This document shows positions 49,185 to 64,000 of a DNA stretch of 64,000 bases, in pieces. This DNA is from Chloroflexia bacterium SDU3-3 (GTDB lineage Bacteria > Chloroflexota > Chloroflexia > Chloroflexales > Roseiflexaceae). Positions within the stretch are counted from its first letter, which is position 1. Each line of letters begins with the position of its first letter. The DNA lies in contig WBOU01000007.1 of the NCBI GenBank assembly GCA_009268125.1, forward strand, positions 310,001 to 374,000. Reading direction: 5' to 3'. The position numbers and the translations under genes were made by a program. The notes under the pieces are model-generated. The model was not told the origin of the DNA. It did not search any database and saw only the letters and a list, made by a program, of their open reading frames with translations.

Positions 49185-52100
49185 ATGGAACTACACCAAC
49201 TTCTCACCGAGCTGGCCGACAGCCAGCAGGTGACGGCGATCATGGCCAGCCTGCGCGAGCGGGAGGCGGCGCGGCTGCGCGTGGCCCCGGCGCTGGGCGC
49301 GGCGCGGCCCGCCCTGGTGGCCGCGCTCGCGGCCCGCTGGGATGCCCCGGTGCTGTATGTGACAACCAACGACGACCTAGCCCAGCGCGCCCACGCCGAC
49401 CTCTGCGAGTGGCTGGGCGACGGCGTGGCCATCCACTTCCCCGCCAGCGATGCGCTGCCCTACGAGCAGATGTCGCCCGGCCCCGGCGTGCTGGCCGGGC
49501 GGCTGCGGGTGCTGGCCCGGCTGGCCGCGCCCCAGCCGCCGCTGGTGGTGGTGGCCTCGGCCAAGGCGCTGATGCAGATCACGCTCACGCCCGAGCAGTG
49601 GCGCTCCGCCGCGATCACGCTGCGGCAGGGCGAGGAGCGCAGCCCCGATGGGCTGGTGCAGCGCTGGGTCGACCTGGGCTACCGCACCACGCCCACCGTG
49701 GAGGAGCCGGGCGAGCTGAACCGGCGCGGCGGCATCCTGGATATCTGGCCGCCGGGCGATGACCTGCCGCTGCGGATCGAGTTTTTCGGCGACGAGGTGG
49801 ACAGCCTGCGCCGCTTCGACCCGGTGAGCCAGCGCAGCGAGCGCCGCGAGCGCGAGGTGGTGGTCGGCCCGCCGACCGATATACCGCTGTGGAATGCGGC
49901 CAGCGCCGCCGCGCGGCTGCGGGCCATGCCGATCGACTCGCTGCGGATCGAGGCCCGCGAGGAGTGGAACGCGGCGATCGAGCGGATCGCCAGCGGCGAG
50001 CGCTTCGAGGCGCGCGGCTTCTACGCGCCGTTCTTCCGCGCCGAGGGCGAGCGGGCCTCGCTGCTGAGCCACCTGCCCGAGCAGGCGCTAGTGCTGCTGG
50101 GCGACACCGTGCTGCTGGAGCAGCACGCCTGGGAGGTCGACCAGCAGGCCGAGGAGCGCCGCGCCACCCATATCGAGTCGGGCGAGCTGCCGCGCAGCTT
50201 CCCCAAGCCCTACCTGGCCTGGGCCGAGCTGCTGGGCCACGCCGAAGATCTGGCGCAGGCCGACCTTTCCAACAACGACCTGCCCAGCCAGCGCGGCGAG
50301 CTGGTGCTGGCCCCGCCCGAGCTGCTGCCCGCCGACCTGTTTGGCGGCCAGCTCAAGGGCCTCATCCACGACATCGTGGAGCGCACCCAGCGCGGCGAGC
50401 GCGTGATCGCGATCACCCCGCAGGCGGCGCGCATCCAGGAGCTGGTGGCCGAGGCCCAGGCCGAGCAGGGCGGCGACCCCGAGCTGTTCACCGCGCTGCA
50501 CGGCGCGCTCGACCAGGGCTGGCGCGCGCCGTGCATCCCCGCCACGCTCTACACCGACAGCGAGATCTTCGGCTGGCGGCAGCGGCGCGTGGTGGGCGAG
50601 CGCAAGGGCCGCGACCGCGACGCCGACGCGCGGGCCAGCTTCCTGCGCGGGCTGAAGCCGGGCGACTACGTGGTGCATATCGAGCACGGCATCGCCCAGT
50701 ACGATGGCGTGATACGCCGCACCGTGGGCAAGATCGAGCGCGACTACCTGGTGCTGAAGTACGCCGAGGGCGACAAGCTGTATGTGCCGGTCGACCAGAT
50801 CGACCGCGTGTCGCGCTACATCGGCTCGGGCGACGCCACGCCGCAGCTGACGCGGCTGGGCACCCAGGAGTGGGAGCGCGCCAAGCGCAAGGCCCGCGCC
50901 GCCGTGGAGGATCTGGCCGACGACCTGCTGGAGCTGTATGCGGCGCGGCAGGCCAGCGAGGGCTTCGCCTTCTCGCCCGATAACGAGTGGCAGCGCGAGA
51001 TGGAGGACGCCTTCCCCTACATCGAGACCGCCGACCAGATCCGCGCGATCGAGGCCACCAAGCAGGACATGGAGCACTCGCTGCCCATGGACCGGCTGGT
51101 GATCGGCGACGTGGGCTTTGGCAAGACCGAGGTGGCGCTGCGGGCGGCCTTCAAGGCTATTCAGGATGGCAAGCAGGTGGCCGTGCTGGTGCCCACCACC
51201 GTGCTGGCCCAGCAGCACTACGACACCTTCAAGCGGCGGCTGGCCACCTTCCCCGTGAAGATCGAGATGCTCTCGCGGCTGCGCTCTGCCATGCAGCAGA
51301 CCGAGATCCTGGGCGAGCTGCTGCGCGGCGAGGTCGACATCCTGGTGGGCACCCACCGGCTGCTCTCGCAGGATGTGGTGTTCAAAGATCTGGGGCTGCT
51401 GGTGGTAGATGAGGAGCAGCGCTTTGGGGTGCGCCACAAGGAGCGAATCAAGCAGATCCGCGCCAATATTGACGTGCTGACCCTGACCGCGACGCCCATT
51501 CCGCGCACGCTGCACATGGCCATGGCCGGTATCCGCGACATGAGCGTGATCGACACGCCGCCCGAGGACCGCATCCCGATCAAGACCTATGTGATGCCGC
51601 ACGACGACAAGCTGGTGCGCGAGGCTATCCTGCGCGAGATCGAGCGCGGCGGGCAGGTGTTCTACATCCACAACCGCGTGCAGAGCATCTACTACATGGC
51701 CGACCGCCTGAAGCACCTGGTGCCCGAGGCCCGCTACATCGTTGGGCACGGCCAGCTGGGCGAGAAGCAGCTTGAGAAGGTGATGCTGGACTTCTTCAGC
51801 GGCAAGGCCGATGTGCTGGTGAGCACCACCATCGTGGAGAGCGGGCTGGATGTGCCAAACGCCAACACCATCATCATCGACGACGCGGTGAACTACGGTC
51901 TGGCCCAGCTCTACCAGCTGCGCGGGCGGGTGGGCCGCAGCACCCAGCGGGCCTACGCCTACCTGTTCTACGCTGCCGACCGCCGGATCTCCGACGAGGC
52001 CCACGAGCGGCTCCAGGCCATCCAGGAGGCCACCGAGCTAGGCGCGGGCCTGCGTATCGCCATGCGCGACCTGGAGATACGCGGCGCGGGCAACCTGCTG

Positions 52101-52802
52101 GGGGCCGAGCAGAGCGGCCACATCGCCGCCGTGGGCTTCGACCTCTACACGCGGCTGCTGGAGCAGGCGGTGAGCACGCTCAAGCAGCAGTTCAACGCGG
52201 GCGTGCCGGTCAAGCCCAAGAAGCAGGCCGCGCCCAAGGGTGCCGCGCCCGCCGCACCGGACGCGCCCGCCGCACCCAAGGCCGCGCCCAAGAAGCCGAC
52301 CATCAAGGTCGACGAGAAGGTGCTGGTCGGCCCGCTGGTGACGCTGGATCTGCCGCTGGATGCCTACATCCCCGCCGACTACATCCCCGACGACCGCGTG
52401 CGGCTGGAGGTTTACCAGCGCCTGGCCGAGGCCCAGACGCCCCAGCGCGTGCGCGAGCTGCGCACCGAGCTGCGCGACCGCTTCGGCGAGCCGCCCGAGC
52501 CGGTGGAGAGCCTGCTCACCTGGCTGATGATCAAGGCGCTCTCGCTGCGCGCCGGGGTCGGGTCGATCGTCACCACCGACGAGGAGTTTATCATCCGCCT
52601 GCCCGAGGCGGGCGTGGCCGAGCGCGAGCGGCTACGCCAGAGCCTCAAGCACGATGGCGCGGTCAAGATCGGGCCGCAGTTCGCGCGGCTGGATCGGCGC
52701 ACGGTGCGCGACGAGTGGGTGCCCGCGCTCTCGGGCATCCTGGAGACAGTGGCCCGCCAGCGTGCCGAGCGGCTGCCTACTGGCGCGCAAAAATATACAT
52801 AA
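49185..52802 (+). CDS. mfd: Transcription-repair coupling factor Mfd
   Basis: 1205-residue ATPase that removes stalled RNA polymerase and recruits UvrA. The UvrB-homology region (about 10-330) is followed by the polymerase-interacting domain (DYVVHIEHGIAQYDGV...KLYVPVDQIDRVSRYIG, about 485-550), and the RecG-like motor with Walker A GDVGFGKTE (near 640) and DEEQ box (near 740), motif VI region QLRGRVGRSTQRAYAYL, and a C-terminal TRCF domain. A lysine/alanine/proline-rich insert (about 1010-1042) precedes TRCF. Its 3' end overlaps the convergent DUF218 gene by 26 bases. Confidence 0.97.
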   Translation: MELHQLLTELADSQQVTAIMASLREREAARLRVAPALGAARPALVAALAARWDAPVLYVTTNDDLAQRAHADLCEWLGDGVAIHFPASDALPYEQMSPGPGVLAGRLRVLARLAAPQPPLVVVASAKALMQITLTPEQWRSAAITLRQGEERSPDGLVQRWVDLGYRTTPTVEEPGELNRRGGILDIWPPGDDLPLRIEFFGDEVDSLRRFDPVSQRSERREREVVVGPPTDIPLWNAASAAARLRAMPIDSLRIEAREEWNAAIERIASGERFEARGFYAPFFRAEGERASLLSHLPEQALVLLGDTVLLEQHAWEVDQQAEERRATHIESGELPRSFPKPYLAWAELLGHAEDLAQADLSNNDLPSQRGELVLAPPELLPADLFGGQLKGLIHDIVERTQRGERVIAITPQAARIQELVAEAQAEQGGDPELFTALHGALDQGWRAPCIPATLYTDSEIFGWRQRRVVGERKGRDRDADARASFLRGLKPGDYVVHIEHGIAQYDGVIRRTVGKIERDYLVLKYAEGDKLYVPVDQIDRVSRYIGSGDATPQLTRLGTQEWERAKRKARAAVEDLADDLLELYAARQASEGFAFSPDNEWQREMEDAFPYIETADQIRAIEATKQDMEHSLPMDRLVIGDVGFGKTEVALRAAFKAIQDGKQVAVLVPTTVLAQQHYDTFKRRLATFPVKIEMLSRLRSAMQQTEILGELLRGEVDILVGTHRLLSQDVVFKDLGLLVVDEEQRFGVRHKERIKQIRANIDVLTLTATPIPRTLHMAMAGIRDMSVIDTPPEDRIPIKTYVMPHDDKLVREAILREIERGGQVFYIHNRVQSIYYMADRLKHLVPEARYIVGHGQLGEKQLEKVMLDFFSGKADVLVSTTIVESGLDVPNANTIIIDDAVNYGLAQLYQLRGRVGRSTQRAYAYLFYAADRRISDEAHERLQAIQEATELGAGLRIAMRDLEIRGAGNLLGAEQSGHIAAVGFDLYTRLLEQAVSTLKQQFNAGVPVKPKKQAAPKGAAPAAPDAPAAPKAAPKKPTIKVDEKVLVGPLVTLDLPLDAYIPADYIPDDRVRLEVYQRLAEAQTPQRVRELRTELRDRFGEPPEPVESLLTWLMIKALSLRAGVGSIVTTDEEFIIRLPEAGVAERERLRQSLKHDGAVKIGPQFARLDRRTVRDEWVPALSGILETVARQRAERLPTGAQKYT

Positions 52803-53403
52803 GGTAGGCCCCGGCCTCGCGCAGCACGTGCCCGGCCTCCTCGGCGGAGAGCCCGGAGGATGCCGACTGGATGGGCGCGGGCGCGGCGTCTAGCCCCAGG
52901 TCGTGGGCGATCTTCAGCGAGCGCAGCATGTGGTAGCCGTCGCTCACCAGCAGCACGGATGGCATGCCCTGCTCGCGGATGATCTGCGCGGCGTTGGTCA
53001 GGCTCTCCAGTGTGGTGGTGCCGGTCTCCTCGGCGAACAGCGCCCCCGGCTCGACCCCGCGCGAGAGCAGGTACTCGCGGCCCGCCGCCGCCTCGCTGGT
53101 GGTGTCGCCCTTGCCCACGCCGCCGGTGAGGATGATGGCGCTCACGGTGCGGCGCTGGTACAGGTCCAGCGCGCGGTCGAGCCTGGCCCGCAGCACAGGC
53201 GAGGGCGAGCCGTTCCACTGGGCCGCGCCCAGCACCACGGCCACGTTGGCCTGGTGGGCCTCGTCGCGCCCGGCCTGGGCCACGATCAGGCCGCAGACCA
53301 GCAGCAGCAGGGCCACGGCCCCGGCGGCGATCAGGCCCAGCCCGCGCAGGGCGCGCAGCAGCAGTCGGCGCTGCTGGGTGAAGGTTCGTATGGATGTGAT
53401 CAT
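52777..53403 (-). CDS. YdcF/DUF218 family membrane protein
   Basis: 208 residues. A short basic N-terminus, one membrane helix (about 20-45; LGLIAAGAVALLLLVCGLIVAQ), then a DUF218 domain: VAVVLGAAQWNGSPSPVLRARLDRALDLYQRRTVSAIILTGGVG, SEAAAGREYLLSRGV, EETGTTTLESLTNAAQII, VLLVSDGYHMLRSLKIAHDLGL. Related proteins (SanA, YdcF) are envelope-linked with unproven chemistry. A TTGCGC-17-GATAAT promoter ends six bases before the ATG, so the mRNA looks leaderless. It is convergent with mfd. Confidence 0.88.
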   Translation of the reverse strand: MITSIRTFTQQRRLLLRALRGLGLIAAGAVALLLLVCGLIVAQAGRDEAHQANVAVVLGAAQWNGSPSPVLRARLDRALDLYQRRTVSAIILTGGVGKGDTTSEAAAGREYLLSRGVEPGALFAEETGTTTLESLTNAAQIIREQGMPSVLLVSDGYHMLRSLKIAHDLGLDAAPAPIQSASSGLSAEEAGHVLREAGAYLMYIFARQ

Positions 53404-53409
53404 GCCGCC

Positions 53410-53438
53410 ATTATCGCCACAGCGGCGGAGTTGCGCAA
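53410..53438 (-). promoter_or_regulatory. Promoter of the DUF218 gene, leaderless arrangement
   Basis: Minus strand: TTGCGC (53438-53433), 17 bases, GATAAT (53415-53410), then six bases to the ATG at 53403. Confidence 0.55.
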
Positions 53439-53462
53439 GTTGACGCCCTGCGAGCGTATCAA

Positions 53463-53640
53463 GGATATGTACCACCAAGACTCCAAGAGATGCAAATGTG
53501 TGGCCTGCTGCGAAGATATGGGATATCCCATGTTTTGGCGGTAAACGGTTTTCCTCTTCGCTTCTCCGTAGTATTCGTCCCCTTCGTGCCTTTGCGTCTT
53601 CGTGGTATTTATTCCCTTGTGTCTTGGTGGTAAACGGTTC
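53463..53640. repeat. Dispersed 8-bp-period repeats in both directions between divergent genes
   Basis: ACCACCAAGACTCCAAGAG (53471-53489) reads toward the minus-strand DUF218 gene. CTTCGTGCCTTTGCGTCTTC with GTGGTATT and GTGTCTTGGTGGTAAACGG (about 53583-53640) read toward the plus-strand gene at 53713. The 53495-53580 stretch between them shows only decayed units. Confidence 0.85.
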
Positions 53641-53676
53641 ATCCCCCTTGCTGCAACCGCCCACGACGAGATCTCG

Positions 53677-53682
53677 TATAAT
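53677..53682 (+). promoter_or_regulatory. -10 box of the small membrane protein gene
   Basis: TATAAT, 30 bases before the ATG at 53713; AAAGAAAGGG follows as a ribosome binding site. Confidence 0.5.
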
Positions 53683-53712
53683 TGCCACATCTGAAAGAAA
53701 GGGCGGGGCGCG

Positions 53713-54066
53713 ATGCATAGATTCGACTGGCGCTGGGTGGGCGTGGTGGCGCTGATCATCTTCATTACCCAGATCCGCTATATGCCGCCGGTGTTTGCGG
53801 CGGTGTTCCTAGCGGCTGGCGGCGGCTACTTTATTTACGTGGGCTGGCAGCAGTGGCGGCGCGGCGGCGGCACCGGCCTTGCGCCCACATCCAGCAAGAA
53901 GGTGACCTACTGGCGCGGCCAGCGGATCGAGCTGGCCCCCGAGCGGCGCGGCCCGCGCGCGCCCTCGCTGCGCAGCGCGGCTCCGGCGGTGCTGTTCATG
54001 CTGCTGGGCGCGGCGCTGGTGCTGATCGCGCTCTTCAGCGGCGTGGGGGCGCTGGGCGTGCTGTAG
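53713..54066 (+). CDS. Small membrane protein of unknown function
   Basis: 117 residues with two N-terminal hydrophobic segments (VGVVALIIFITQIRYM, PVFAAVFLAAGGGYFIYVGW), a basic cytoplasmic loop (YWRGQRIELAPERRGPR) and a C-terminal helix (APAVLFMLLGAALVLIALFSGV). AAAGAAAGGG lies upstream. I do not recognise a family. Confidence 0.65.
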   Translation: MHRFDWRWVGVVALIIFITQIRYMPPVFAAVFLAAGGGYFIYVGWQQWRRGGGTGLAPTSSKKVTYWRGQRIELAPERRGPRAPSLRSAAPAVLFMLLGAALVLIALFSGVGALGVL

Positions 54067-54165
54067 CGCTGCACTTTGTGGGTGTTGGGCGGTGCCCCGC
54101 TGGGGTGCCGCCTTTTCTTTTGACGGTACAATGGCCTGCACGCCGATAGCCCCAAGGAGCTTTGT

Positions 54166-54687
54166 ATGGAACCACAGCCGATCACCCTGCGCCCTGTGCG
54201 CGCCGACGACCTGCCGACCCTTGAGCAGTGGCAGAACGATTTCGAGATGCTGAGCGCCTACAACATGTTTGGCCTGAAGCCGACCAATCGCATGGCGCGG
54301 GCCTTTGAGGAGGATGGCTTTCTGACCCAGCAGCATGGGCGGCTGCTGATCGAGGAGCGCGGCGGGCTGCTGGTGGGCGACATGGACTACCGCCAGGTGC
54401 ACTATGGGCCGGGCTGGGGGAATGTGGCCTACGCCATCGGGATCAGCCTGGTGGTGGCGGCGCGTGGCAAGGGCTACGGCACGCTGGCGCAGCGCCTGTG
54501 CGCGGAGTACCTGTTTGCGACCTACCCGATCATGCGGGTGGAGGCCAGCACCGATATCAGCAACACCCGTGAGCAGCGCTCGCTGGAGAAGGCGGGTTTC
54601 ACCCGCGAGGGCCTGGCGCGCAAGGCCCAGTGGCGCGGCGGCGAGTGGCACGACCTGGTGCTCTATAGCAAGCTGCGCGGCGAGTAG
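54166..54687 (+). CDS. GNAT acetyltransferase, RimJ/RimL-like
   Basis: 173 residues. ITLRPVRADDLPTLEQWQND, GDMDYRQVHYGPGWGNVAYAIGISLVVAARGKGYGTLAQRLCAEYLF and VEASTDISNTREQRSLEKAGFTREGLARKAQWRGGEWHDLVLYSKL give the typical acetyl-CoA site (ARGKGYG) and C-terminal strand pair. The substrate is unknown. CAAGGAG lies upstream of the ATG, and a GGTACAAT box about 40 bases before it may be the -10. Confidence 0.87.
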   Translation: MEPQPITLRPVRADDLPTLEQWQNDFEMLSAYNMFGLKPTNRMARAFEEDGFLTQQHGRLLIEERGGLLVGDMDYRQVHYGPGWGNVAYAIGISLVVAARGKGYGTLAQRLCAEYLFATYPIMRVEASTDISNTREQRSLEKAGFTREGLARKAQWRGGEWHDLVLYSKLRGE

Positions 54688-54743
54688 CGGCGGCCAGGGC
54701 GGGGCGTGCGCCGTGTGGCGCATCCCCCGCCCTGGGGGGCATG

Positions 54744-54962
54744 TCAGTGCTCATCGATCTCCCGCAGGGTCTCGCGGGCGGTGTAGATCAGGTCGTTCAG
54801 CCACCCGCGCAGATCCTCGCGGCTCAGCGGCGTCGCCTCGTCGATCTGGCCGTTCGAGGCGTAGTCGTGCAGCAGGTCGAGCCGCAGAAACAGCTCCTCC
54901 ATCCCCTCGGCGGTGTAGTCGCGGCGGATGCGCTCGCGCAGGATGCGATCCAGCATGCCCAT
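54744..54962 (-). CDS. Small acidic helical protein of unknown function
   Basis: 72 residues: MGMLDRILRERIRRDYTAEGMEELFLRLDLLHDYASNG and then REDLRGWLNDLIYTARETLREIDEH. It is mostly helical, with no cysteines. AAGAAAGGAC before the ATG at 54962 fixes the start. I do not recognise it. Confidence 0.6.
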   Translation of the reverse strand: MGMLDRILRERIRRDYTAEGMEELFLRLDLLHDYASNGQIDEATPLSREDLRGWLNDLIYTARETLREIDEH

Positions 54963-55214
54963 GGCGTGTGTCCTTTCTTGCTGGTCTGGCTGGGTGACGG
55001 AAAAGAAAAAGGTGCGAGGCTGGTTAGGCCTCACACCTTGGGTGAAGATCTCGCGCTGTGCCGCTGGCTCACATGCGCGCCCCCCCTGATGCTTGGCGCT
55101 TCCCACCTGCTGATATGCGTGCATAGCCTCGCATGGCGTCGCTTGGCTTGAACGGCGCGCACAGGCTCTGTTGCGGCAGATTCTCCAGGTGGAATTTGGG
55201 GGCGCGTAAGCTGA

Positions 55215-55424
55215 TCACGGGTTGACCTCGATCTTGGTGGTGTCGAGCATCTTTAGGATGCTGGACCCCTTGATAAAGACACGGCGGATGCTTTCAGGTC
55301 GGCTGGCCTCAAGCTGGCCTGCGGCGATCAGGCGCTTGATGGTGCTGAGGCTGACGCCGAGCACGTCGGCGGCTTCCTCGCGGGAGTAGATCGCCTCGGG
55401 ATTGACCGGCTCTCGTTTCGTCAT
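55215..55424 (-). CDS. Excisionase-family helix-turn-helix protein
   Basis: 69-residue DNA-binding protein with a MerR-like winged helix (IYSREEAADVLGVSLSTIKRLIAAGQLEASRPESIRRVFIKGSSILKML). GGAGGAC precedes the ATG. Such small proteins occur both in mobile elements and as free-standing regulators; no integrase is nearby, so a chromosomal regulator is more likely. Confidence 0.8.
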   Translation of the reverse strand: MTKREPVNPEAIYSREEAADVLGVSLSTIKRLIAAGQLEASRPESIRRVFIKGSSILKMLDTTKIEVNP

Positions 55425-55519
55425 GGGCAGTCCTCCAGAATCCAGATGAATGTAGCATAGCTCAAGAGGGGCGTCAATGGGTCAAAAGTCGGAGGGGACT
55501 GGGCTGAAAGGATGATTTG

Positions 55520-56053
55520 TTAGGCGTCGCGCCATGCGCCGGGGGCTAGGTCGCCCAGGCGGTAGGGGCCGACGGCCACGCGGATGAGGCGCAGCGTGGG
55601 GAAGCCGACCGCCGCTGTCATGCGGCGCACCTGGCGGTTGCGGCCCTCGCGGATGGTGAGCGCCAGCCAGGATGTGGGCACACTCTTGCGCTCGCGGATG
55701 GGCGGGGTGCGCGGCCACACCTCGGGCGGCGCGATCAGCTGGGCCTGGGCGGGGCGGGTGGGGCCGTCGTTCAGCTGCACGCCCTGGCGCAGCGCGGCCA
55801 GCGCCTGCTCGCTGGGCAGGCCCTCCACCTGCGCCCAGTAGGTCTTGGGCATCTTGTGGCGCGGGTCGGCGATCTGCTGCTGGGCCTTGCCGTCGTCGGT
55901 GAGCACCAGCAGGCCCTCGCTGTCGTGGTCGAGCCGGCCTGCGGCGTACACGCCCGGCACGGGGATGTAGTTGGCCAGGGTCGGCCTGCCATCGGGGTCG
56001 GTGAACTGGCAGAGCACGAGGTAGGGCTTGTTGAAAAGGATGATGCGTGACAT
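55520..56053 (-). CDS. 23S rRNA pseudouridine synthase, RsuA family (RluE-like)
   Basis: 177-residue enzyme. [53 protein letters not shown] holds the catalytic Asp of [21 protein letters not shown] and [30 protein letters not shown] complete the family. It lacks the N-terminal S4 domain, as RluE does, so modification of 23S rRNA near U2457 is the best guess. A TGCTACAAT box ends six bases before ATG 56053, so the mRNA looks leaderless. Confidence 0.9.
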
Positions 56054-56059
56054 TGGGCT

Positions 56060-56068
56060 ATTGTAGCA
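56060..56068 (-). promoter_or_regulatory. Extended -10 of the pseudouridine synthase gene, leaderless
   Basis: Minus strand TGCTACAAT; the last T is six bases from the ATG. Confidence 0.6.
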
Positions 56069-56136
56069 TAGCGCTGCCCCGCGTCTGTTTTTGGCAGGCC
56101 CGGCGGCCCGCTCCATGGCGTCGCGCCAAACGCGGC

Positions 56137-56145
56137 TGCTATAAT
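56137..56145 (+). promoter_or_regulatory. Extended -10 of the DUF2270 gene, leaderless
   Basis: TGCTATAAT; the last T is six bases from the ATG at 56152, mirroring the divergent gene. Confidence 0.65.
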
Positions 56146-56151
56146 ACCCCT

Positions 56152-56910
56152 ATGAACGAGCAGCTAGCGCCACCGCCTATCTCGGCCAGCGTGCATATCT
56201 ACCGCGGCCTGATGGACCGCGCCGTCTCGTGGCGGCAGCGGATCGACTCCCCCACCAACTGGGCGATCACCACCAGCGGCACTGTGGCCAGCTTTGTGCT
56301 GAGCGACGCGGGGCACCCGCATGTGGTGCTGCTGCTGATGATGGTGCTGATGTATGCGTTTCTGATCATCGAGGCGCGGCGGATGCGCTACTACGAGCTG
56401 TGGGCCAGCTGGGTGCGCCTGCTGGAGACCGACTACTTCGCGTCGATTCTGCGCGATGGCCAGGCGGGCATCGGCCAGCCCTGGCAGCAGCTGATCGTGC
56501 ACGACTTTGCAAACCCGCACTTTAAGACCCCGATCGTGCATCTGGTGGCCCGCCGTCTGCGGGATAACTACCTGCTGCTGCTGCTGTTTCTGCTGGCCTG
56601 CTGGCTGGTGAAGCTGGTCATTCACCCGTCGGGCGGTGCGGCGGGCCTGGTCGAGCGGGCCTCCATCGGGGTTATCCCAGGCGCGGCGGTGTTTGCGGCG
56701 GTGCTCGGCTCGTATGTGCTGCTGGTGCTGTTCACCGCGCTGTATGGCCGCCGCGTGCCAAACGCCGAGCTGCTGCCCCGCGAGCTGCTGGCCGAGCGCA
56801 TGCTGGCTGTGCCCGAGCGGCTGGGCAGCTACCAGCTGCGCGCCGCCCTGCGCGAGCGCTTCCTGAGCAGCGAGGACGACCTGCCGCTGCGGCGCGATGA
56901 CTGGGACTGA
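56152..56910 (+). CDS. DUF2270 family integral membrane protein
   Basis: 252 residues. DRAVSWRQRIDSPTNWAITTSGTVASFVLS, then VLLLMMVLMYAFLIIEARRMRYYELWASWVRLLETDYFASILRDG, then two C-terminal helices (YLLLLLFLLACWLVKLVIHP and AAVFAAVLGSYVLLVLFTALYG) match the DUF2270 pattern. The function is not known to me. The start is fixed by the promoter directly upstream. It is divergent from the rRNA pseudouridine synthase. Confidence 0.88.
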   Translation: MNEQLAPPPISASVHIYRGLMDRAVSWRQRIDSPTNWAITTSGTVASFVLSDAGHPHVVLLLMMVLMYAFLIIEARRMRYYELWASWVRLLETDYFASILRDGQAGIGQPWQQLIVHDFANPHFKTPIVHLVARRLRDNYLLLLLFLLACWLVKLVIHPSGGAAGLVERASIGVIPGAAVFAAVLGSYVLLVLFTALYGRRVPNAELLPRELLAERMLAVPERLGSYQLRAALRERFLSSEDDLPLRRDDWD

Positions 56911-57063
56911 GCACTATTGAGCTTGGTGCGAGGCAGGAACCTAGCTGCTGCCGCGCCGTTCTTCTGCTAGAATACGACGCTTTTCGAGCGCCGATGTTTC
57001 CCGACCTAGGCTGGGGCGCGGCCATGCCCGCCCTGCATTGTTGACATAGAAGGAAATCGACCG

Positions 57064-58530
57064 ATGAACACAGGCAGCGCCGCCCTGATCCTCACCGCAC
57101 ACGCGCCCTACCTGCGCTCCGCCGGGCGCGAGCCGGTGGGCGAAGACCGCCTGCACGAGCTGACGGCCAGCGCCCTCATCCCTGCCCTGAACACACTCTA
57201 CGACCTGTGCGAGCGCGACCTGCGGCCCCGGCTGGGTCTGGCGCTCTCGCCGCTGCTGCTGGAGCAGCTGGGCGACCCGGTGGTGCAGAAGCACTTCTAC
57301 TTCTGGATCGAGCGCCGGATCGCCCAGGCCCAAGATGCGCTGGCCAGCGCGGCGGGCGACCAGGGCCGGGCCTACCTGGCCCAGTTCTACATCGACTGGG
57401 CCGAGGGCATCCGCACCAGCTTCGACGTGCGCTTTGGCCGCAACCTGGTGGCGGCGCTGCGCCCGCTGGTGGATGCGCAGATCGTCGAGCCGCTGGCCAG
57501 TGCGGCCAGCTACCCTCGGCTGGCCAGCATCGGCAGGGCCACCACGCTGCGCGCCCAGATCGACCTGGGCGTGATGGCTGCCGCCCAGGCCTATGGCTGC
57601 CGCCCGCGCGGCTTCTGGCCGCCCTCGGGGGCCTACCGCGCCGCCGCCGGCCCCATGCTGGCCGATAACGAGGTGGCCTATGTGCTGCTCGACCCCGCCG
57701 ATGTGCAGGACCGCTCGACCGCGCCCGGCTGGGTGGTGCAGCGTAGCCTAATGGGCATCCCGGTCGACCGCGCCTTCGACGCCTATGTCAGCGCCCCCGA
57801 CCTTGACTACAGCGGCGACCCGCTCTACCGCGCGCCCGTGGCCGATGCCGACGGCTTCGCCTGGCACCGCAACGGCATGGGCGGCCAGCCTGAGCTATAC
57901 GACCCCTACGACGCCTACCAGCGCGCCCAGGAGCACGCCGCCCACTTCCTAGAGGTGATGGCGGCACGCGGGCGCGAGTCGCAGCGCGAGCTGAGCGTGA
58001 TCGTGCTGGATGCCGCCGTGGTGGGCGGGCGCTGGTTCGAGGGGGCCTCGTGGTTTCGCGCCCTGCTCACCGAGCTGGCCGAGCGCGAGGATCAGGCGCT
58101 CACCACGCCGGGGGCGTATATGGATGCGGTGCTCATCCGCCGCACCCTGGCGCTGCGGCCCGAGCCGCTGGCCGAGGGCGGCGTGTACGGTGGCCAGCAC
58201 CTGTTCTCGCTGCAGCAGTCGCTGCGCGCCGCCGAGGCCCGCCTAGGCGCGCTGGCCAAGCGCCACCCCACCGCCGCCGCCGAGCGCGAGCGCGTGCTGC
58301 AGCAGGCCGCCCGCGAGCTGCTGCTGGCCCAGTCGCACGATCTGGCCGCCCGCGAGGAGGCCCACAGCGCGCCCCGCCAGATGATGCGCCACCTGACGCG
58401 CTGCATCCAGCTGTGCGACCTGGCCGAGCGCCCCGAGCTGTCCGAGGATGATCTGGTGCTGCTGGAGACGCTGGAGGAGGAGGATAACCCCTTCGCGCAT
58501 GTCAACTATCGCATTTTTGCCGATCTGTAG
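57064..58530 (+). CDS. GH57-like protein lacking the catalytic glutamate
   Basis: 488 residues resembling GH57 (DUF1957) alpha-glucan branching enzymes: ALILTAHAPYLRSAGREPVGEDRLHELTASALIPALNTL, RPRLGLALSPLLLEQLGDP, GCRPRGFWPPSGAYRAAAGPMLADNEVAYVLLD and VIVLDAAVVGGRWFEGASWFRALL. In active enzymes the GFWLPECAY-type motif carries the nucleophile Glu; here that position is Ser188. The second catalytic Asp may be D316 in VLDAAVV, but the usual GHWWFEG has become GGRWFEG. It is probably a non-catalytic relative. AAGGAAA precedes the ATG. A role in glycogen metabolism is not shown. Confidence 0.75.
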   Translation: MNTGSAALILTAHAPYLRSAGREPVGEDRLHELTASALIPALNTLYDLCERDLRPRLGLALSPLLLEQLGDPVVQKHFYFWIERRIAQAQDALASAAGDQGRAYLAQFYIDWAEGIRTSFDVRFGRNLVAALRPLVDAQIVEPLASAASYPRLASIGRATTLRAQIDLGVMAAAQAYGCRPRGFWPPSGAYRAAAGPMLADNEVAYVLLDPADVQDRSTAPGWVVQRSLMGIPVDRAFDAYVSAPDLDYSGDPLYRAPVADADGFAWHRNGMGGQPELYDPYDAYQRAQEHAAHFLEVMAARGRESQRELSVIVLDAAVVGGRWFEGASWFRALLTELAEREDQALTTPGAYMDAVLIRRTLALRPEPLAEGGVYGGQHLFSLQQSLRAAEARLGALAKRHPTAAAERERVLQQAARELLLAQSHDLAAREEAHSAPRQMMRHLTRCIQLCDLAERPELSEDDLVLLETLEEEDNPFAHVNYRIFADL

Positions 58531-58698
58531 CGGGCCGCGAGAAGCCCCTGCCCTCACGTGGCGTCGCCGCAATTGAGATGCAGCACAGGCACATCGGAAG
58601 ATTGGATTGAGCCGTGCTATGCGCATCGTCTGGCGCGCGAGATGGTGTCGCCCCCGGTGTGTGGATGAGCAGCGTACATAACGTGAGATCTTTTGAGG

Positions 58699-58730
58699 GC
58701 GGGCCACCAACATATGGTGGCCCGCGTTTT
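58699..58730 (+). terminator. Terminator downstream of the GH57-like gene
   Basis: GCGGGCCACCA / TGGTGGCCCGC stem with a 5-base loop followed by GTTTT; it is 170 bases past the stop. Confidence 0.7.
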
Positions 58731-58757
58731 CTTTGAGCGGCGAGGAAACGCGCGCGA

Positions 58758-58888
58758 GAGGTAGGTGAACGCTCGACGAAGGCAGGTGAACGCTCGACGA
58801 AGGCAGGTGAACGCTCGACGAAGGCAGGTGAACGCTCGACGAAGGCAGGTGAACGGACGAATGAGGCAGGTGAATGCTCGACGAAGGC
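58758..58888. repeat. 21-bp minisatellite C (6 units)
   Basis: Unit AGGTGAACGCTCGACGAAGG plus C, exact 21-bp period (AGGTGA at 58763, 58784, 58805, 58826, 58847 and 58868), with one altered unit (GGACGAATG). Unit sequence differs from A and B. Confidence 0.95.
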
Positions 58889-59045
58889 TCGCCCCACCTG
58901 GCCCATGCGGCGAAGGTGCCGCTAGGGTTTTGATGGCCATATGCACGAACACCAGATGCCTGACTTCGGCATAGGAATGCTACAAATTGGGGGTTTCGAA
59001 GGGGGCGTAGCCCCATGGCGGGGTTGCTAGGGGCAGGCCCCTAGC
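58889..59045 (+). repeat. Shared hairpin module, copy C
   Basis: Begins CGCCCCACCTGGCCCATGCG right after the minisatellite and holds GGCCATATGCACGAACACCAG, a decayed GGGGGCGTAGCCCC dyad, and CTAGGGGCAGGCCCCTAG. Confidence 0.85.
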
Positions 59046-59338
59046 CGCCGCCCGCGCAGGGCACGCACCAACCGAACAAGAACTCCCATCCTCATCGAAG
59101 CCGCAGGCGGTCGGGCCGCCCGCGCAGGGCACGCACCAACCGAACAAGAACCACCATCCTCATCGAAGCCGCAGGCGGTCGGGCCGCCCGCGCAACGCAG
59201 CAAGCATTGCCTACGGTCGGGTCGCCCGCAAAAACGAGGCATCACCTCAAGGTTGGGCAGCACCGCCGCCCGCGCAGGGCACACATCAACCGAACAAAAA
59301 CCACCATCCTCATCGAAGCCGCAGGTGGTCGGGCCGAC
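59046..59338 (+). repeat. Tandem array of about 70-bp units
   Basis: Three clear units (from 59046, 59116 and 59267) contain GCCCGCGCAGGGCAC, CAACCGAACAAGAAC or close variants, and CATCCTCATCGAAGCCGCAG. A diverged block sits at 59185-59266. The units are homologous to the 80-bp units at 37.8 kb. On the minus strand each keeps a frame reading GFDEDGG...CPARAA. Confidence 0.85.
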
Positions 59339-59397
59339 TACTGCACCGAGAAGCAGCCACCCTGCGGCCCAGCCGCGCGTTTTGTCTGACGTTGAGG

Positions 59398-59889
59398 CTA
59401 GCTGCTCAGCGTGCGTGCTGCCCGCTCGATCTGGCGGATGTGGGGTCGCTCGTGGTTGATCAGCCGCAGTGCGTAGTCGCGTACGGTGCGCCGCAGTGGG
59501 CGGCCCGCGCCCGTGACAGTGGCGGCCAGGCTCCAGCCCTCGGGCGGCAGCGCCCGCAGCGTGGCCAGCAGCGCCTCGCGCTGCGCCGCGAAGGCCTGGA
59601 GCGAGGGCAGGAAGTCCAGCTGGGGGTAGTCGGTCTGCCTGATCCAGGTGGTGGGGTTGATAGCCCGGATGGTCGCGCCGGGCTGGGCGATGATCGTGGC
59701 GATGGCCTCGCCCCACACATCGGCGCAGGATCGCAGGTGGGCCAACACCTCGCTGGCCGACCACTCGCCGGGCGCGGGTGGCGCGCGCAGCAGGGCGGGC
59801 GGCACGCCCTGGGCGGCGGCGGCCAGCCGGGGCGGCGCGCTGGCCAGCAGCTCGATCAGCTCGTGGGGGGGACGCTCGTGGTCAGCCAT
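59398..59889 (-). CDS. DinB family protein
   Basis: 163-residue four-helix-bundle protein of the DinB/YfiT superfamily of putative metal-dependent thiol transferases or hydrolases. EWSASEVLAHLRSCADVWGEAI carries the first His and DYALRLINHERPHIRQIERA the second pair, consistent with a three-His metal site. AAGGAGGAG precedes the ATG. It follows priA by 17 bases, so they are one transcript, though no functional link is evident. Confidence 0.87.
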   Translation of the reverse strand: MADHERPPHELIELLASAPPRLAAAAQGVPPALLRAPPAPGEWSASEVLAHLRSCADVWGEAIATIIAQPGATIRAINPTTWIRQTDYPQLDFLPSLQAFAAQREALLATLRALPPEGWSLAATVTGAGRPLRRTVRDYALRLINHERPHIRQIERAARTLSS

Positions 59890-59906
59890 GGGTCTCCTCC
59901 TTTTTG

Positions 59907-62450
59907 CTACAGCACGTGCGCCGGGTCGATATCCACCACCCAGCCGGGCGGCGGGCGCAGCACCGCCAGCAGCGGCGCAGGGTCGTCGCAGCGCAGCAGC
60001 AGGTGCCAGCGGAAGCGATTGCGCTGGCGGTGGAAAAAGGCGGGGGCTGGCCCGATGATTGCCCAGCCGCGCATGCCCAGCGCCGTGGCCTGCTGCTCGA
60101 CCTCGATCGCCAGCGCCTGGGCGGCGGCGCGGCTGCGGGTGTCGCTCGCGCCGCTGTAGATGAAGCGCACCAGTCGGCTAAACGGCGGATAGCGCGTCTG
60201 TTTGCGGTAGGCGATCTCCTGGGTGAAGAAGGCCTGGTAGTCGTGCTCCTGCGCGGCCTGCAGCGCGTAGTGCTCGGGGTCATAGGTCTGGATGACCACC
60301 TGCGCGTCGGCCTGCCTGCGGCCGGCGCGGCCCGCCACCTGGGTGAGCAGCTGGAAGCTGCGCTCGCCCGCGCGGAAGTCGGGCAGGTGCAGCCCGGTGT
60401 CGGCGGCCACCACCCCCACCAGCGACACCAGCGGCAGATCTAGCCCCTTGGCGATCATCTGGGTGCCCACCAGCACATCGGCGCGGTGCTCTAGGAAGGC
60501 GTCGAGCAGCCGCTCGTGGTCGCCCTTCTTGGTTACGGTGTCGCGGTCCCAGCGCAGCGGGCGGGCCTGCGGGAACAGCGCCGCCACCTCTTCCACCACG
60601 CGCTGTGTGCCCACCCCGAACGACTTGATGCGCGTGCTGAAGCACTCGGGGCAGAATGGCGGCGTGGTGGCGCGGTGGTTGCAGCCGTGGCACACCAGGA
60701 TGGATGACGACAGCTCGTCGCCCGCCAGCCGCTGGATGCCGCCCTGGCTCGGCTCCTCGTGGTGCAGGGTGAGCGGCGACGAGCAGTTGGGGCAGCTGAT
60801 CACGTGGCCGCAGTCGCGGCACATCACGAACGAGGCCGCGCCGCGCCGGTTGATGAACAGGATGGCCTGCTGCCCGCGCTCTAGGGTGCGCAGCAGCCCC
60901 TGCTGAAGCGCGCGGCTGAAGATCGAGCGGTTGCCCTTCTCCAGCTCGCGGCGCATGTCCACCAGCTGCACGGGCGGCAGCGGCAGCGCCACCGAGCGCG
61001 GCAGGCCGAGGGCGTCGCGCCCGCTGCCCACGCGCTCGGCCAGGCGCAGCAGGGTGTAGCGGCCATCCAGCGCGGCCTGGTAGCTCTCGACCGAGGGCGT
61101 GGCGCTGCCCAATATCAGCACGCTGTCGGTGAGCCGCGCCAGGGTGCGCGCCGCCTCGCGGGCGTGGTAGCGCGGGCTGCTGTCGTGCTTGAAGGTCGGC
61201 TCGTGCTCCTCATCCACGATGATCAGGCCCAGCTCGGGCAGCGGCGCGAACACCGCCGAGCGCGAGCCGATGGCCAGCCGGGCCTCGCCCCGCCGCAGCC
61301 GCCGCCACTCGTCGTAGCGCTCGCCCATGCCCAGGCCCGAGTGTAGCACGGCCAGCTGGCCGGGGAAGCGCGCCGCGAACCGCCGCACCAGCTGGGTGGT
61401 GAGCGCGATCTCGGGCACCAGCACTAGGGCCTGCCTGCCGCGCCGCATGGCCCGCGCGATCGCCCGCAGGTAGATCTCGGTCTTGCCGCTGCCGGTCACA
61501 CCGTGCAGCAGGAAGGTGCGGTCGCCCCGCTCGTCGGCCTGCTCCAGCGCCTGCGCGATCGGTCTCCAGACGGCCTCCTGGGCCACGGTGAGCGCCGGGG
61601 GCATGTCGGGCGGGGTGGCGTCGCCCGCCAGCGGGTCGCGGCGCACCTCCAGCTCGCTCAGCTCGACCAGGCCGCGCTGCTCAAGCGCGCGCAGCGCCGT
61701 CAGGTTTGCGCCGGTCTGGGCGTAGAGCTGCGTGGTGGGGTAGATCTGGCCATCGGCGGCCTGCTCGGCCAGGTGGCGCAGCGCGGCCTGCTGGCGCGGG
61801 GCGCGCTGCAGTTCGGCCAGCGCGGCCTCGCGCTGGGCCGGGTCGGCCAGCAGCCGCACCATGCGCTCGATGCGCGGGCGGGCCTTGGCGCGGGTGGTGG
61901 CGCTCTCGCGGGCGATCAGGCCGCGCTCGGCCAGGGCGCGGTAGATCTCGCGCAGCTCGCCGTCGCCGCCGCGCAGCCGCTGGCGCAGCTCGGCCTCGCG
62001 GGTGGGGCCGAGCTGGCGCAGCAGGTAGAGCACTGCCCGCTCGGCCTCGGGCAGGCCGCCCAGGTCGCTGGCCAGCCCGGCGGCGCTGGCGCGGTAGACC
62101 GGCTCGGACTCCTGGCTGACGCCGGGGGGCAGCATCAGCGCCAGCGCCTCGTAGGTGGGCACGCTGTAGTAGGCGGCCAGCCAGCGGGCCAGCGCGATCT
62201 GCGGCTCGGTGAGCGCGGCCTCGGGGTCGGCCAGATCGTCGATCTCGCGGTACGCCGCGCCGCCGCCCTCGTCGTTGGGGTAGGTATCCAGCACCACGCC
62301 CTGCACGCGCTTGCGCCGCAGCGGCACCCACACCAGCCGCCCTGGCCGGATGTGCTGGCGCAGCCGCGCGGGCGCGCGGTAGGTGAAGATCGGGTCGGCG
62401 TCGGGGATGCTGACGTGCACCGCGACATCGGCGAGCAGCTCTGGTGGCAT
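59907..62450 (-). CDS. priA: Primosomal protein N' (replication restart helicase PriA)
   Basis: 847 residues. An N-terminal DNA-binding region (VAVHVSIPDADPIFTYRAPARLRQHIRPGRLVWVPLRRKRVQGVVL) is followed by a winged-helix region, a helicase with Walker A GVTGSGKTE (near 320) and DEEH box (near 410), the zinc-binding stretch (CRDCGHVISCPNC and CHGCNHRATTPPFCPEC, about 540-610), and VAGRAGRRQADAQVVIQTYDPEH. An extra stretch (SQGGIQRLAGDELSSS) sits between the two zinc motifs. The promoter is TTGCCC-17-TACACT. Confidence 0.96.
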   Translation of the reverse strand: MPPELLADVAVHVSIPDADPIFTYRAPARLRQHIRPGRLVWVPLRRKRVQGVVLDTYPNDEGGGAAYREIDDLADPEAALTEPQIALARWLAAYYSVPTYEALALMLPPGVSQESEPVYRASAAGLASDLGGLPEAERAVLYLLRQLGPTREAELRQRLRGGDGELREIYRALAERGLIARESATTRAKARPRIERMVRLLADPAQREAALAELQRAPRQQAALRHLAEQAADGQIYPTTQLYAQTGANLTALRALEQRGLVELSELEVRRDPLAGDATPPDMPPALTVAQEAVWRPIAQALEQADERGDRTFLLHGVTGSGKTEIYLRAIARAMRRGRQALVLVPEIALTTQLVRRFAARFPGQLAVLHSGLGMGERYDEWRRLRRGEARLAIGSRSAVFAPLPELGLIIVDEEHEPTFKHDSSPRYHAREAARTLARLTDSVLILGSATPSVESYQAALDGRYTLLRLAERVGSGRDALGLPRSVALPLPPVQLVDMRRELEKGNRSIFSRALQQGLLRTLERGQQAILFINRRGAASFVMCRDCGHVISCPNCSSPLTLHHEEPSQGGIQRLAGDELSSSILVCHGCNHRATTPPFCPECFSTRIKSFGVGTQRVVEEVAALFPQARPLRWDRDTVTKKGDHERLLDAFLEHRADVLVGTQMIAKGLDLPLVSLVGVVAADTGLHLPDFRAGERSFQLLTQVAGRAGRRQADAQVVIQTYDPEHYALQAAQEHDYQAFFTQEIAYRKQTRYPPFSRLVRFIYSGASDTRSRAAAQALAIEVEQQATALGMRGWAIIGPAPAFFHRQRNRFRWHLLLRCDDPAPLLAVLRPPPGWVVDIDPAHVL

Positions 62451-62489
62451 GGTGTGTTGGCCTATAGATCAGGGAAGGGTCCGGGGCGT

Positions 62490-62518
62490 AGTGTAGCGGA
62501 ATCGCGGCGGCGGGGCAA
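62490..62518 (-). promoter_or_regulatory. priA promoter
   Basis: Minus strand: TTGCCC (62518-62513), 17-base spacer, TACACT (62495-62490). Confidence 0.55.
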
Positions 62519-62548
62519 GTGCTGGCCAGCCGCCGCGCGGGAGATTTT

Positions 62549-62703
62549 TCACCACGAAGACACGAAGGCGCGAAGGGCAGCCATTTTACCACCAAGACAC
62601 CAAGGCACAAGGGGACAAAAGAGAACGAATACCACGAAGACACGAAGGCACGAAGGGCAGCCGTTTTACCATCAAGATACCAAGGCACCAAGGGATCAAG
62701 AGG
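62549..62703 (-). repeat. Dispersed 8-bp-period repeats upstream of priA
   Basis: Four units: CACCACGAAGACACGAAGGC, TACCACCAAGACACCAAGGC, TACCACGAAGACACGAAGGC, and TACCATCAAGATACCAAGGC. The CGAAG and CCAAG subtypes alternate. All read toward priA on the minus strand. Confidence 0.9.
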
Positions 62704-62725
62704 AAATAAATATTGGCGAGATGCT

Positions 62726-62800
62726 AGCCCTACCCACCTGGCCCATGCGGCGAAGGTGTCGCTGATGTTTTGATGGCCATATGCACGAACATCAGCGACC
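62726..62800 (+). repeat. Partial shared module, copy D
   Basis: CCTACCCACCTGGCCCATGC GGCGAAGGTG followed by a perfect 12-bp dyad GTCGCTGATGTT / AACATCAGCGAC around GGCCATATGCAC. The later parts of the module and any minisatellite are absent here. Confidence 0.8.
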
Positions 62801-62838
62801 AAGAGACGGCATTGGATAGGCATTGGGGGCGATGCACG

Positions 62839-62869
62839 CGTAGGGGCGGATCTCGTGTCCGCCCCTACG
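62839..62869. repeat. REP-like palindrome, copy 2
   Basis: CGTAGGGGCGGA / TCCGCCCCTACG, a perfect 12-bp stem with a 7-base loop, 29 bases past the stop of the phosphatase gene; it may also act as its terminator. Confidence 0.65.
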
Positions 62870-62897
62870 CCAATGATCCTATCGCTTGCGTGGCAGC

Positions 62898-63386
62898 CTA
62901 GCTGGCCACGGCCAGATCGCGCTGGATGGCCTCCAGCAGGCCGCGCCCGCCCGCCTCGACCATGTGGTAGACCGCCTCGAAGTTGCCCGTGTAGTAGGGG
63001 TCGGGCACATCCTTGGCGGCGCCCTCGGGGATGAAGTCGGAGAGCAGGGCCACCTTCGCACCGGCCCGCTGCCCGATCGCCCGCAGGTCGCTCAGGTTGG
63101 TGCGGTCCATGGCGATCAGGTAGTCGAACTGCTCGAAGTCCTCCACGCCCACCTGGCGGGCGGCGTGGGCGTAGCTGATGCCGCGCTGCTGCAGCAGGGC
63201 GCGCGTGCCTTGGTGGGGCTGCTCGCCCAGGTGATAGTCGCCGGTGCCCGCCGAGTCGGCCTCGACGATGTCCTGCATCCCGGCCTGCTTCACAAGGTCG
63301 CGGAATACGGCCTCGGCCATGGGCGAGCGGCAGATGTTGCCGAGGCAGACGAAGAGCACGCGGACTTTGGGTGCTGTGTTTGTCAT
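62898..63386 (-). CDS. Low molecular weight protein-tyrosine phosphatase
   Basis: 162-residue phosphatase. The P-loop VLFVCLGNICRSPMAEAVF has nucleophile C14 and R20, and the general acid Asp is in VPDPYYTGNFEAVYHMVE. ADSAGTGDYHLGEQPHQGTRALLQQRG is the standard family stretch. Bacterial members often control exopolysaccharide tyrosine kinases, which would fit the polysaccharide genes at 10.5-12.9 kb, but an arsenate-reductase role is less likely. It follows yidD by 44 bases. Confidence 0.93.
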   Translation of the reverse strand: MTNTAPKVRVLFVCLGNICRSPMAEAVFRDLVKQAGMQDIVEADSAGTGDYHLGEQPHQGTRALLQQRGISYAHAARQVGVEDFEQFDYLIAMDRTNLSDLRAIGQRAGAKVALLSDFIPEGAAKDVPDPYYTGNFEAVYHMVEAGGRGLLEAIQRDLAVAS

Positions 63387-63430
63387 AACGCTCCTGAGAC
63401 GTATGAGGGCGACGGAACCGAAGGTTGCCG

Positions 63431-63640
63431 CTAGGGCACAGGGTCGTGGCCGCCGTGGGCGAAGGGGTGGCAGCGCAGGATGCGCTTGGCCCCCAGCCAG
63501 CCGCCCCTCAGCACGCCGTACCTGCTGATCGCCTCGTAGGTGTAGGCCGAGCAGGTGGGCGTGTAGATGCAGCTTGGCGGCAGCGCGGGCGAGATAAACT
63601 TCTGGTAGAAGCGGATGAGCTTCAGTGCGATCCAGCGCAT
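63431..63640 (-). CDS. yidD: Membrane protein insertion efficiency factor YidD
   Basis: 69 residues: [62 protein letters not shown], with the conserved CSAYT and three cysteines. It is associated with the inner membrane and helps YidC. It is not beside rnpA and yidC here, where it often lies. Confidence 0.95.
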
Positions 63641-63685
63641 AGGTGTGTGGGCGCAGGGCGGCGTGGCCTCCGCTGCGCGCTAGGG

Positions 63686-64000
63686 CTATTTCTGCCGAAA
63701 GATCTCCCAGACCATGTGGCGCAGCTCGGGCAGGATGAGCTTTTCCATGCCCAGCCGCACCGCGCCGGTCGAGCCGGGCAGGCAGAAGATCAGCGTGTCG
63801 CCGTACAGCCCGGCGGTGGCCCGCGAGAGCATGGCCGCCGCGCCGATCTCGTGGTACGACAGCATGCGGAACAGCTCGCCGAAGCCCGGGATGCGCTTGT
63901 GCAGCAGCCCGTCGATGGCCTCGTAGGTGGCGTCGCGCGCGGCGATGCCGGTGCCGCCGTTGGTGATAATCACCTGGCAGCCCTGGGCGGCTAGGCCCTG
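63686..64000 (-). CDS. moaB: Molybdenum cofactor biosynthesis protein MoaB/Mog, C-terminal part
   Basis: At least 104 residues; the gene starts beyond the window edge and the frame is open to base 64000. [49 protein letters not shown] and [30 protein letters not shown] match the MoaB/MogA fold that adenylates molybdopterin. The gene precedes yidD by 45 bases on the same strand. Confidence 0.92.

Follow-up and report, generated by a model that had tools for sequence, protein, structure and literature searches.

A GH57 branching-enzyme-like protein without the nucleophile glutamate in Chloroflexia bacterium SDU3-3, probably a pseudoenzyme kept for a noncatalytic role

The closest described systems to the protein studied here are the solved GH57 branching enzymes (PDB 1ufa/3p0b, 3n8t, 5wu7, and 2b5d), in which a histidine serves as transition-state stabilizer, according to the available text of PMC10346327. 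Relatives without catalytic residues have been described by Martinovicova and Janecek (2018) as "GBE-like" GH57 proteins (60 sequences; PMC6037648), a paper that is, going by titles and abstracts, the sole on-subject work on such proteins among those listed by the literature searches. Its available text holds no discussion of function or of a series of orthologues, and the searched literature, as far as its text was available, yielded nothing further on a glycogen branching enzyme as pseudoenzyme or on GBE-like function. Whole-fold pseudo-glycosidases of unassigned role are known from sequence surveys, and Glu-keeping orthologues for comparison are seldom at hand.

The protein of 488 residues that we describe is encoded in a 64,000-nucleotide stretch of the Chloroflexia bacterium SDU3-3 genome (the window) and shares with the solved GH57 branching enzymes the whole fold, the BE_C domain, the proton-donor Asp, and the GFW.P and WFEG segments. 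It differs from them in lacking the nucleophile Glu, the first His of conserved segment CSR1, the His of CSR2, and seven canonical Trp residues, and in scoring far below the NCBIfam cut-off. Judged by its residues, it fits the GBE-like definition in the available text of PMC6037648. The existence of branching-enzyme-like GH57 proteins without catalytic residues was known already in 2018; new here are an operon link and the finding that orthologues across the order grade from Glu-keeping to disarmed. The presence of both states in one order gives a testable order of events, namely, cleft-residue loss, enzyme replacement, nucleophile loss, and gain of a new partner. We consider the protein to be, in all probability, unable to branch, and our favored explanation is that of a pseudoenzyme whose ancestor was a GH57 glycogen branching enzyme and which is probably kept for a noncatalytic role.

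Gene, predicted fold, and active-site residues

The 488-residue open reading frame with an ATG start at positions 57064 to 58530 of the forward strand is confirmed, as are the serine at residue 188 in place of Glu and the GGRWFEG in place of GHWWFEG that the sequence-only reading had picked out. A Shine-Dalgarno-like AGAAGGA, presumably functional, lies 5' of the ATG (57048 to 57054, forward strand), and GC content at the three codon positions is 77/48/91%. Pfam domains BE_C (4.6e-16) and Glyco_hydro_57 (2.1e-6) are present, and the nearest PDB matches (5wu7 at 4e-41, 3n8t at 9e-38, and 1ufa at 3e-27) are all GH57 branching enzymes, indicating that this is not a chance frame. The protein is the sole GH57 match in its own genome. 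It matches the NCBIfam GH57 branching-enzyme equivalogs at 1.9e-43, yet with scores of 149 bits against a cut-off of 1000 and 137 against 920. These cut-offs are a harsh test, since a canonical GH57 enzyme of family f3 with all residues in place likewise stays below them (560 and 478 bits).

The AlphaFold2 model (pLDDT 87.8, pTM 0.90), built from an input alignment of 34 sequences (the 488-residue protein, its orthologue L072, and 32 other relatives), contains both the (beta/alpha)7-type barrel and the helical domain that the solved enzymes have at the C terminus. It superimposes on solved GH57 branching enzymes with Z scores of 40.9 to 44.2 and root mean square deviations of 2.0 to 2.5 Å over 467 to 481 residues, with 2b5d (Z 44.2, 471 aligned, 2.0 Å), 3n8t (Z 43.7, 481 aligned, 2.5 Å), and 1ufa (Z 42.5, 467 aligned, 2.2 Å) among them, and Foldseek finds 1ufa at 1e-29. 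The claim that fold-specific GH57 segments can be recognized is thereby borne out by Pfam, PDB matches, and model alike. L072, which belongs to a different family within the order and is Glu-less as well, is also predicted to fold as a branching enzyme (pLDDT 86.0; Z 37.6 to 40.8, the highest to 1ufa), so the predicted fold survives loss of the nucleophile. Non-GH57 structural matches (deacetylases and GH38) ranked below the GH57 rows and were taken as reflecting the shared barrel only.

With respect to the active site, we compared the protein with canonical branching enzymes (32 in all, of which 17 come from Chloroflexota genomes and 15 from named-genome loci); the names CSR1 to CSR5 follow PMC6037648, and their positions in the 488-residue protein were mapped here by alignment. 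Residues 183 to 191 read GFWPPSGAY, with Ser188 (codon TCG, 57625 to 57627, forward strand, as are all codons below) opposite the E of the W-L-P-E segment of the PDB relatives, ungapped in the sequence alignment, at the nucleophile position of CSR3, which is Glu in 32/32 canonical rows. Three canonical His residues are replaced: the first His of the HxHxP segment (CSR1) by Thr11 (57094 to 57096), the His of the ATHGY segment (CSR2) by Tyr150 (57511 to 57513), and His322 by Gly, the last together with Trp323 by Arg in residues 321 to 327, which read GGRWFEG (codons 322 and 323, 58027 to 58032). Seven canonical Trp residues are gone, six through substitution (R29, S243, R323, L369, Y375, and S382) and one, the Trp of SSDW, through deletion after D426. 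Retained are H13, which is the second His of CSR1, as well as W185, Y249, Y255, Y279, H291, W324, E326, and Asp316 (codon GAT, 58009 to 58011) at the proton-donor position of CSR4. In the alignment, the damage to the site extends past the motifs of the sequence-only reading, and the presumed acid/base Asp316, which went unmentioned there, is retained.

Now that the nucleophile is missing, along with much of the cleft that holds the sugar, a covalent glycosyl-enzyme intermediate would no longer be possible, on a branching-enzyme fold that appears to be kept whole, barrel and helical C-terminal part included. A binding role had also been suggested for this protein; glucan binding through the old cleft is a weak proposal, since seven Trp residues of the canonical enzymes are replaced or deleted. 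The columns of R29 and S382 hold Trp in 0/46 clade members, Glu-keepers included, indicating that the cleft was remodeled before the nucleophile was lost.

We also looked at acidic residues gained by Glu-less members, which occupy 12 columns. The 488-residue protein is acidic at five of them (167, 235, 280, 409, and 468), and the same columns are acidic in 67, 50, 100, 83, and 33%, respectively, of Glu-keeping members. None of these five lies within a conserved catalytic segment, and a compensating acidic residue conserved among Glu-less members was rejected as a candidate.

Orthologues, nucleophile states, and selection

Matches to the protein occur in 87 of the 158 genomes of its class. Within the order (82 genomes) we recovered 50 full-length orthologues, two partial ones, and one decayed copy, the gene being absent from the other 29. 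A sample of 400 genomes of the phylum gave 54 with a match at 1e-30, and 21 of those lie outside the order; the out-of-order matches are weaker (2.5e-39 at best, against 1.1e-62 for the weakest in-order match) and span just part of longer frames (562 to 764 residues), indicating that the clade is a trait of one order of Chloroflexota. A scan of named genomes (80 loci, 15 of them in the tree and 33, including L072, in A2/A3) returned mostly canonical enzymes and a single clade member, L072.

In the tree, 46 orthologues form a single clade (SH-aLRT 99) adjoining canonical enzymes of other Chloroflexota. The tree takes in these 46 of 52 extracted clade sequences and 32 canonical enzymes; left out of it and of the residue counts are four near-identical f3 sequences (L044 to L047) and the partial orthologues L052 and L053, the latter with Asp at the nucleophile position. 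Among the genus groups of the order, we tentatively take g8 to be Roseiflexus, g12 Chloroflexus, and g29 Herpetosiphon. In the Roseiflexus-like genome G068 (contig C59, L054) just residues 4 to 71 and 390 to 486 are left, with stops, and congeners are intact; this decayed copy was kept out of the alignment. The opposite half-loss is seen in G087 (L055:3965-5650), where a canonical-type GH57 branching enzyme keeps the Glu and has Ala for the proton donor.

The state of the nucleophile divides the clade, with Glu in 12 of the 46 rows, Gly in 27, Ala in three, Ser in two, Asn in one, and Asp in one. Orthologues that keep the canonical residue, which the sequence-only reading had regarded as counting against it, thus exist in one part of the clade, and the residue is absent from the other 34 rows. 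The fewest Glu/not-Glu changes are four if canonical enzymes are included and three in the clade alone, and the losses sit in f2 (27/27 rows), in f4, in G050, where Asp has replaced Glu, and in the pair of the 488-residue protein and its sister in genome G062 (SH-aLRT 97). Ser188 and the Ser found in G056 (f4) arose separately. The G062 protein, the nearest relative at 49 to 51% identity, has Ala, and this, together with the mixture of residues in the remaining Glu-less rows, argues against a serine nucleophile. New Ser-based catalysis, one of the roles proposed earlier, was rejected accordingly, Ser being found in 2 of 34 Glu-less rows. Asp316 is kept in 42/46 rows overall, with Asn in G012 and G010, His in G025, and Gln in G050 at its position, and H13, W324, and E326 are present in all 46.

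Clade proteins annotated as branching enzymes may well not branch. The hypothetical protein A9WAT0 of Chloroflexus aurantiacus, for instance, carries the label "1,4 alpha glucan branching enzyme MT3115 like" in the available text of PMC7727763, where branching is assumed to be its activity. It is probably an f2 orthologue of the 488-residue protein, and if so, the branching label is doubtful, since no f2 row has the nucleophile.

Selection was assessed by dN/dS in chosen close groups only, with the five closest pairs per group. In the Glu-less groups (g10, g12, g13, g20, and g25) dN/dS ranges from 0.051 to 0.317, with 18 of 19 pairs at or below 0.157; five pairs of the Glu-keeping group g8 give 0.109 to 0.136, and six pairs of canonical enzymes give 0.072 to 0.215. 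Purifying selection therefore persists after nucleophile loss in those Glu-less groups. Further, 29 columns show conservation at 95% or more within the clade and at 90% or more among canonical enzymes, W185, W324, E326, Y249, Y255, Y279, and H291 among them.

These observations bear on whether the gene is a decaying remnant, that is, an unneeded branching enzyme that is functionless in the SDU3-3 lineage and has its frame open merely through recency. Such a remnant would be in keeping with a clade that evolves faster than its canonical sister group (mean root-to-tip distance of 1.61 over 46 rows versus 0.90 over 21), with the losses of cleft residues being greatest in the 488-residue protein and its G062 sister, with the two stop-ridden fragments in G068, and with the complete absence of the gene from 29/82 genomes of the order. 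It is hard to square with intact frames in 50 genomes across four families, with the low dN/dS of Glu-less groups, and with the 29 shared columns, and we regard decay as unlikely. The earlier claim of a maintained frame as opposed to decay stands for the intact frame and the selection seen in Glu-less relatives; it does not extend to dN/dS in the SDU3-3 lineage itself, which falls outside the groups compared because G062 is too divergent. This last point also tells against the pseudoenzyme explanation, for which selection in the SDU3-3 lineage lies beyond the reach of dN/dS, as does the retention of Asp316 in 42 of 46 rows, which is beyond what a wholly noncatalytic role needs.

Other glucan enzymes in the genomes

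GH13 GlgB above the NCBIfam cut-off is found in 52 of the 82 genomes of the order, accompanying 27/34 Glu-less rows and 0/12 Glu-keeping rows. The 10 Glu-keeping f1 genomes gave no GlgB over the cut-off, no second GH57 protein, and no unclassified CBM48-GH13 protein at 1e-60 (0/10 in each case), and they encode GlgA (10/10) and GlgC (9/10) over the cut-off. The clade protein is the sole branching-enzyme candidate found in these f1 genomes, indicating that there it probably still branches. Mat Roseiflexus has been proposed to make glycogen, according to the available text of PMC4400912.

On the gene content of the f1 Glu-keepers, the order's ancestor would probably have had a working branching enzyme, and the catalytic residue was lost several times with the protein kept, presumably where another glucan-branching or GH13 enzyme was at hand. 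The association between Glu loss and GlgB or a substitute enzyme is suggestive and not significant (two to three independent pairs), which weakens the pseudoenzyme explanation, and it has exceptions: in G052 the Glu is lost, yet no substitute enzyme was found, and in the f3 g29 genomes the Glu is kept alongside a canonical GH57 enzyme. Three further Glu-less genomes without GlgB (G002, G010, and G026) are incomplete drafts (82 to 86%).

SDU3-3 itself encodes two GlgC-like proteins (one over the cut-off), two GlgA, one GT4 synthase, GlgP, and TreZ, and GH57 and NCBIfam searches of its genome found no recognized branching enzyme. Glycogen-synthesis genes are thus present without one, and the combination of glgC, glgA, and glgP with no recognized branching enzyme is an awkward fit to the pseudoenzyme explanation. 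An unclassified protein with CBM48 and GH13 domains (G000:C5:209456-211126; L172:857-2527) is a candidate for a substitute enzyme, either branching enzyme or amylase; among NCBIfam models it matches TreZ best, below the cut-off. It occurs also in the Glu-less sister G062 (78% identical), in G063, G064, G055, and G056, in most of f3, and weakly in G032.

The same gene content, an ADP-glucose glucan apparently made without a recognized branching enzyme, would suit a protein that is still an enzyme by another mechanism, with Asp316 as acid/base and water or substrate in place of the nucleophile (an inverting hydrolase, or transfer assisted by phosphate or by the substrate). In favor of such a mechanism, 30 of the 34 Glu-less rows still have Asp316, and H13, W324, and E326 are kept throughout the clade. 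The canonical site of the 488-residue protein, however, lacks seven cleft Trp and three His residues, its gained acidic columns (5 of 12) all lie outside conserved catalytic segments, the residue replacing the nucleophile varies among Gly, Ala, Ser, Asn, and Asp, and the Asp316 position itself is Asn or His in G010, G012, and G025. We consider continued catalysis of this kind distinctly improbable.

Neighboring genes and possible partners

Directly upstream of the GH57-like gene, at a distance of 153 bp and on the same strand (56152 to 56910, forward), lies a gene for a predicted integral membrane protein of the DUF2270 family, for which our literature search found no publications. DUF2270 is directly upstream and co-directional in 10 genomes, from f1 (G000, G057, and G062) and f3 (G043 to G048 and G050). 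In a DUF2270 tree that took in 6 of these 10 copies, the GH57-adjacent copies group with six nonadjacent f4 copies in a single paralogous clade (12 of 21 rows, support 100/100), apart from the main DUF2270 gene, of which a copy is also present in most of these genomes. The adjacency in both f1 and f3 suggests that the DUF2270-GH57 link is old, reaching two deep lineages.

Partner genes vary by family, with none common to all clade members. In 22 of the 27 f2 genomes, the gene directly upstream is co-directional and encodes a membrane Ser/Thr kinase; of the remaining five, four hit a contig end within 850 bp and one (G036) has 1,479 bp upstream. A PP2C-like gene follows directly downstream in 8/8 f3 genomes, and other partners are DUF4190 (4/4 f4 genomes), an APH-type kinase (five g8 genomes), and WecG (three genomes). 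In G061, none of these listed partner genes is adjacent. The f2 kinase directly upstream of the GH57-like gene (L164:7165-8910) has a long Thr/Pro repeat tail, and its gene is divergent from one for a regulator with FHA and winged-helix domains, identified like the kinase by domain search, and from presumed AroA-like and GalE-like genes.

For the SDU3-3 lineage, the pseudoenzyme explanation would most likely take the form of a noncatalytic function in glucan metabolism at the membrane, be it as partner, scaffold, or regulator, where the conserved adjacency points to a partnership with the DUF2270 protein encoded upstream; that the two work together at the membrane is a tentative proposal, somewhat less than an even chance in our estimate. 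The variation of operon partners between families tells against the explanation insofar as a single partner cannot account for the whole clade. A broader and rather speculative view, to which we give little weight, is that one gene in one order displays every stage, from Glu-keeping sole branching enzymes through Glu-less proteins beside a replacement to a fully disarmed, membrane-linked, noncatalytic partner of glucan metabolism, operon-linked to DUF2270, to a Ser/Thr kinase, or to a PP2C phosphatase. A dead enzyme would then have given rise to a bacterial equivalent of the glycogen-targeting subunits of eukaryotes.

Adjacency to the f2 kinase (22/27) and the f3 PP2C-like gene (8/8) could also be read as the mark of a glucan sensor or targeting subunit, the surface of which binds glycogen and brings in a kinase or phosphatase, and many f2 members do retain several cleft Trp residues. 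We hold this to be very improbable, as adjacency alone does not show interaction, the kinase and the PP2C gene are both nonadjacent at the SDU3-3 locus, and the 488-residue protein has lost cleft Trp residues. A sequencing or assembly artefact is virtually out of the question, given that TCG is at least two substitutions from the Glu codons GAA and GAG, which excludes a single base error, that more cleft residues are altered, and that the sister G062 is Glu-less too.

No Rfam families were found in positions 50000 to 64000 of the window. Just 3' of the GH57-like gene there is a 21-bp tandem repeat of 6.8 copies (58747 to 58888), and further 3' a 68-bp repeat unit is present in 2.2 copies (59047 to 59194), with a separate third copy at 59263 to 59336. 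Upstream of a minus-strand 847-residue open reading frame, a degenerate 37-bp repeat of 3.8 copies (62547 to 62694) contains ACCAAGACACCAAGGCACGAAGG-like text.
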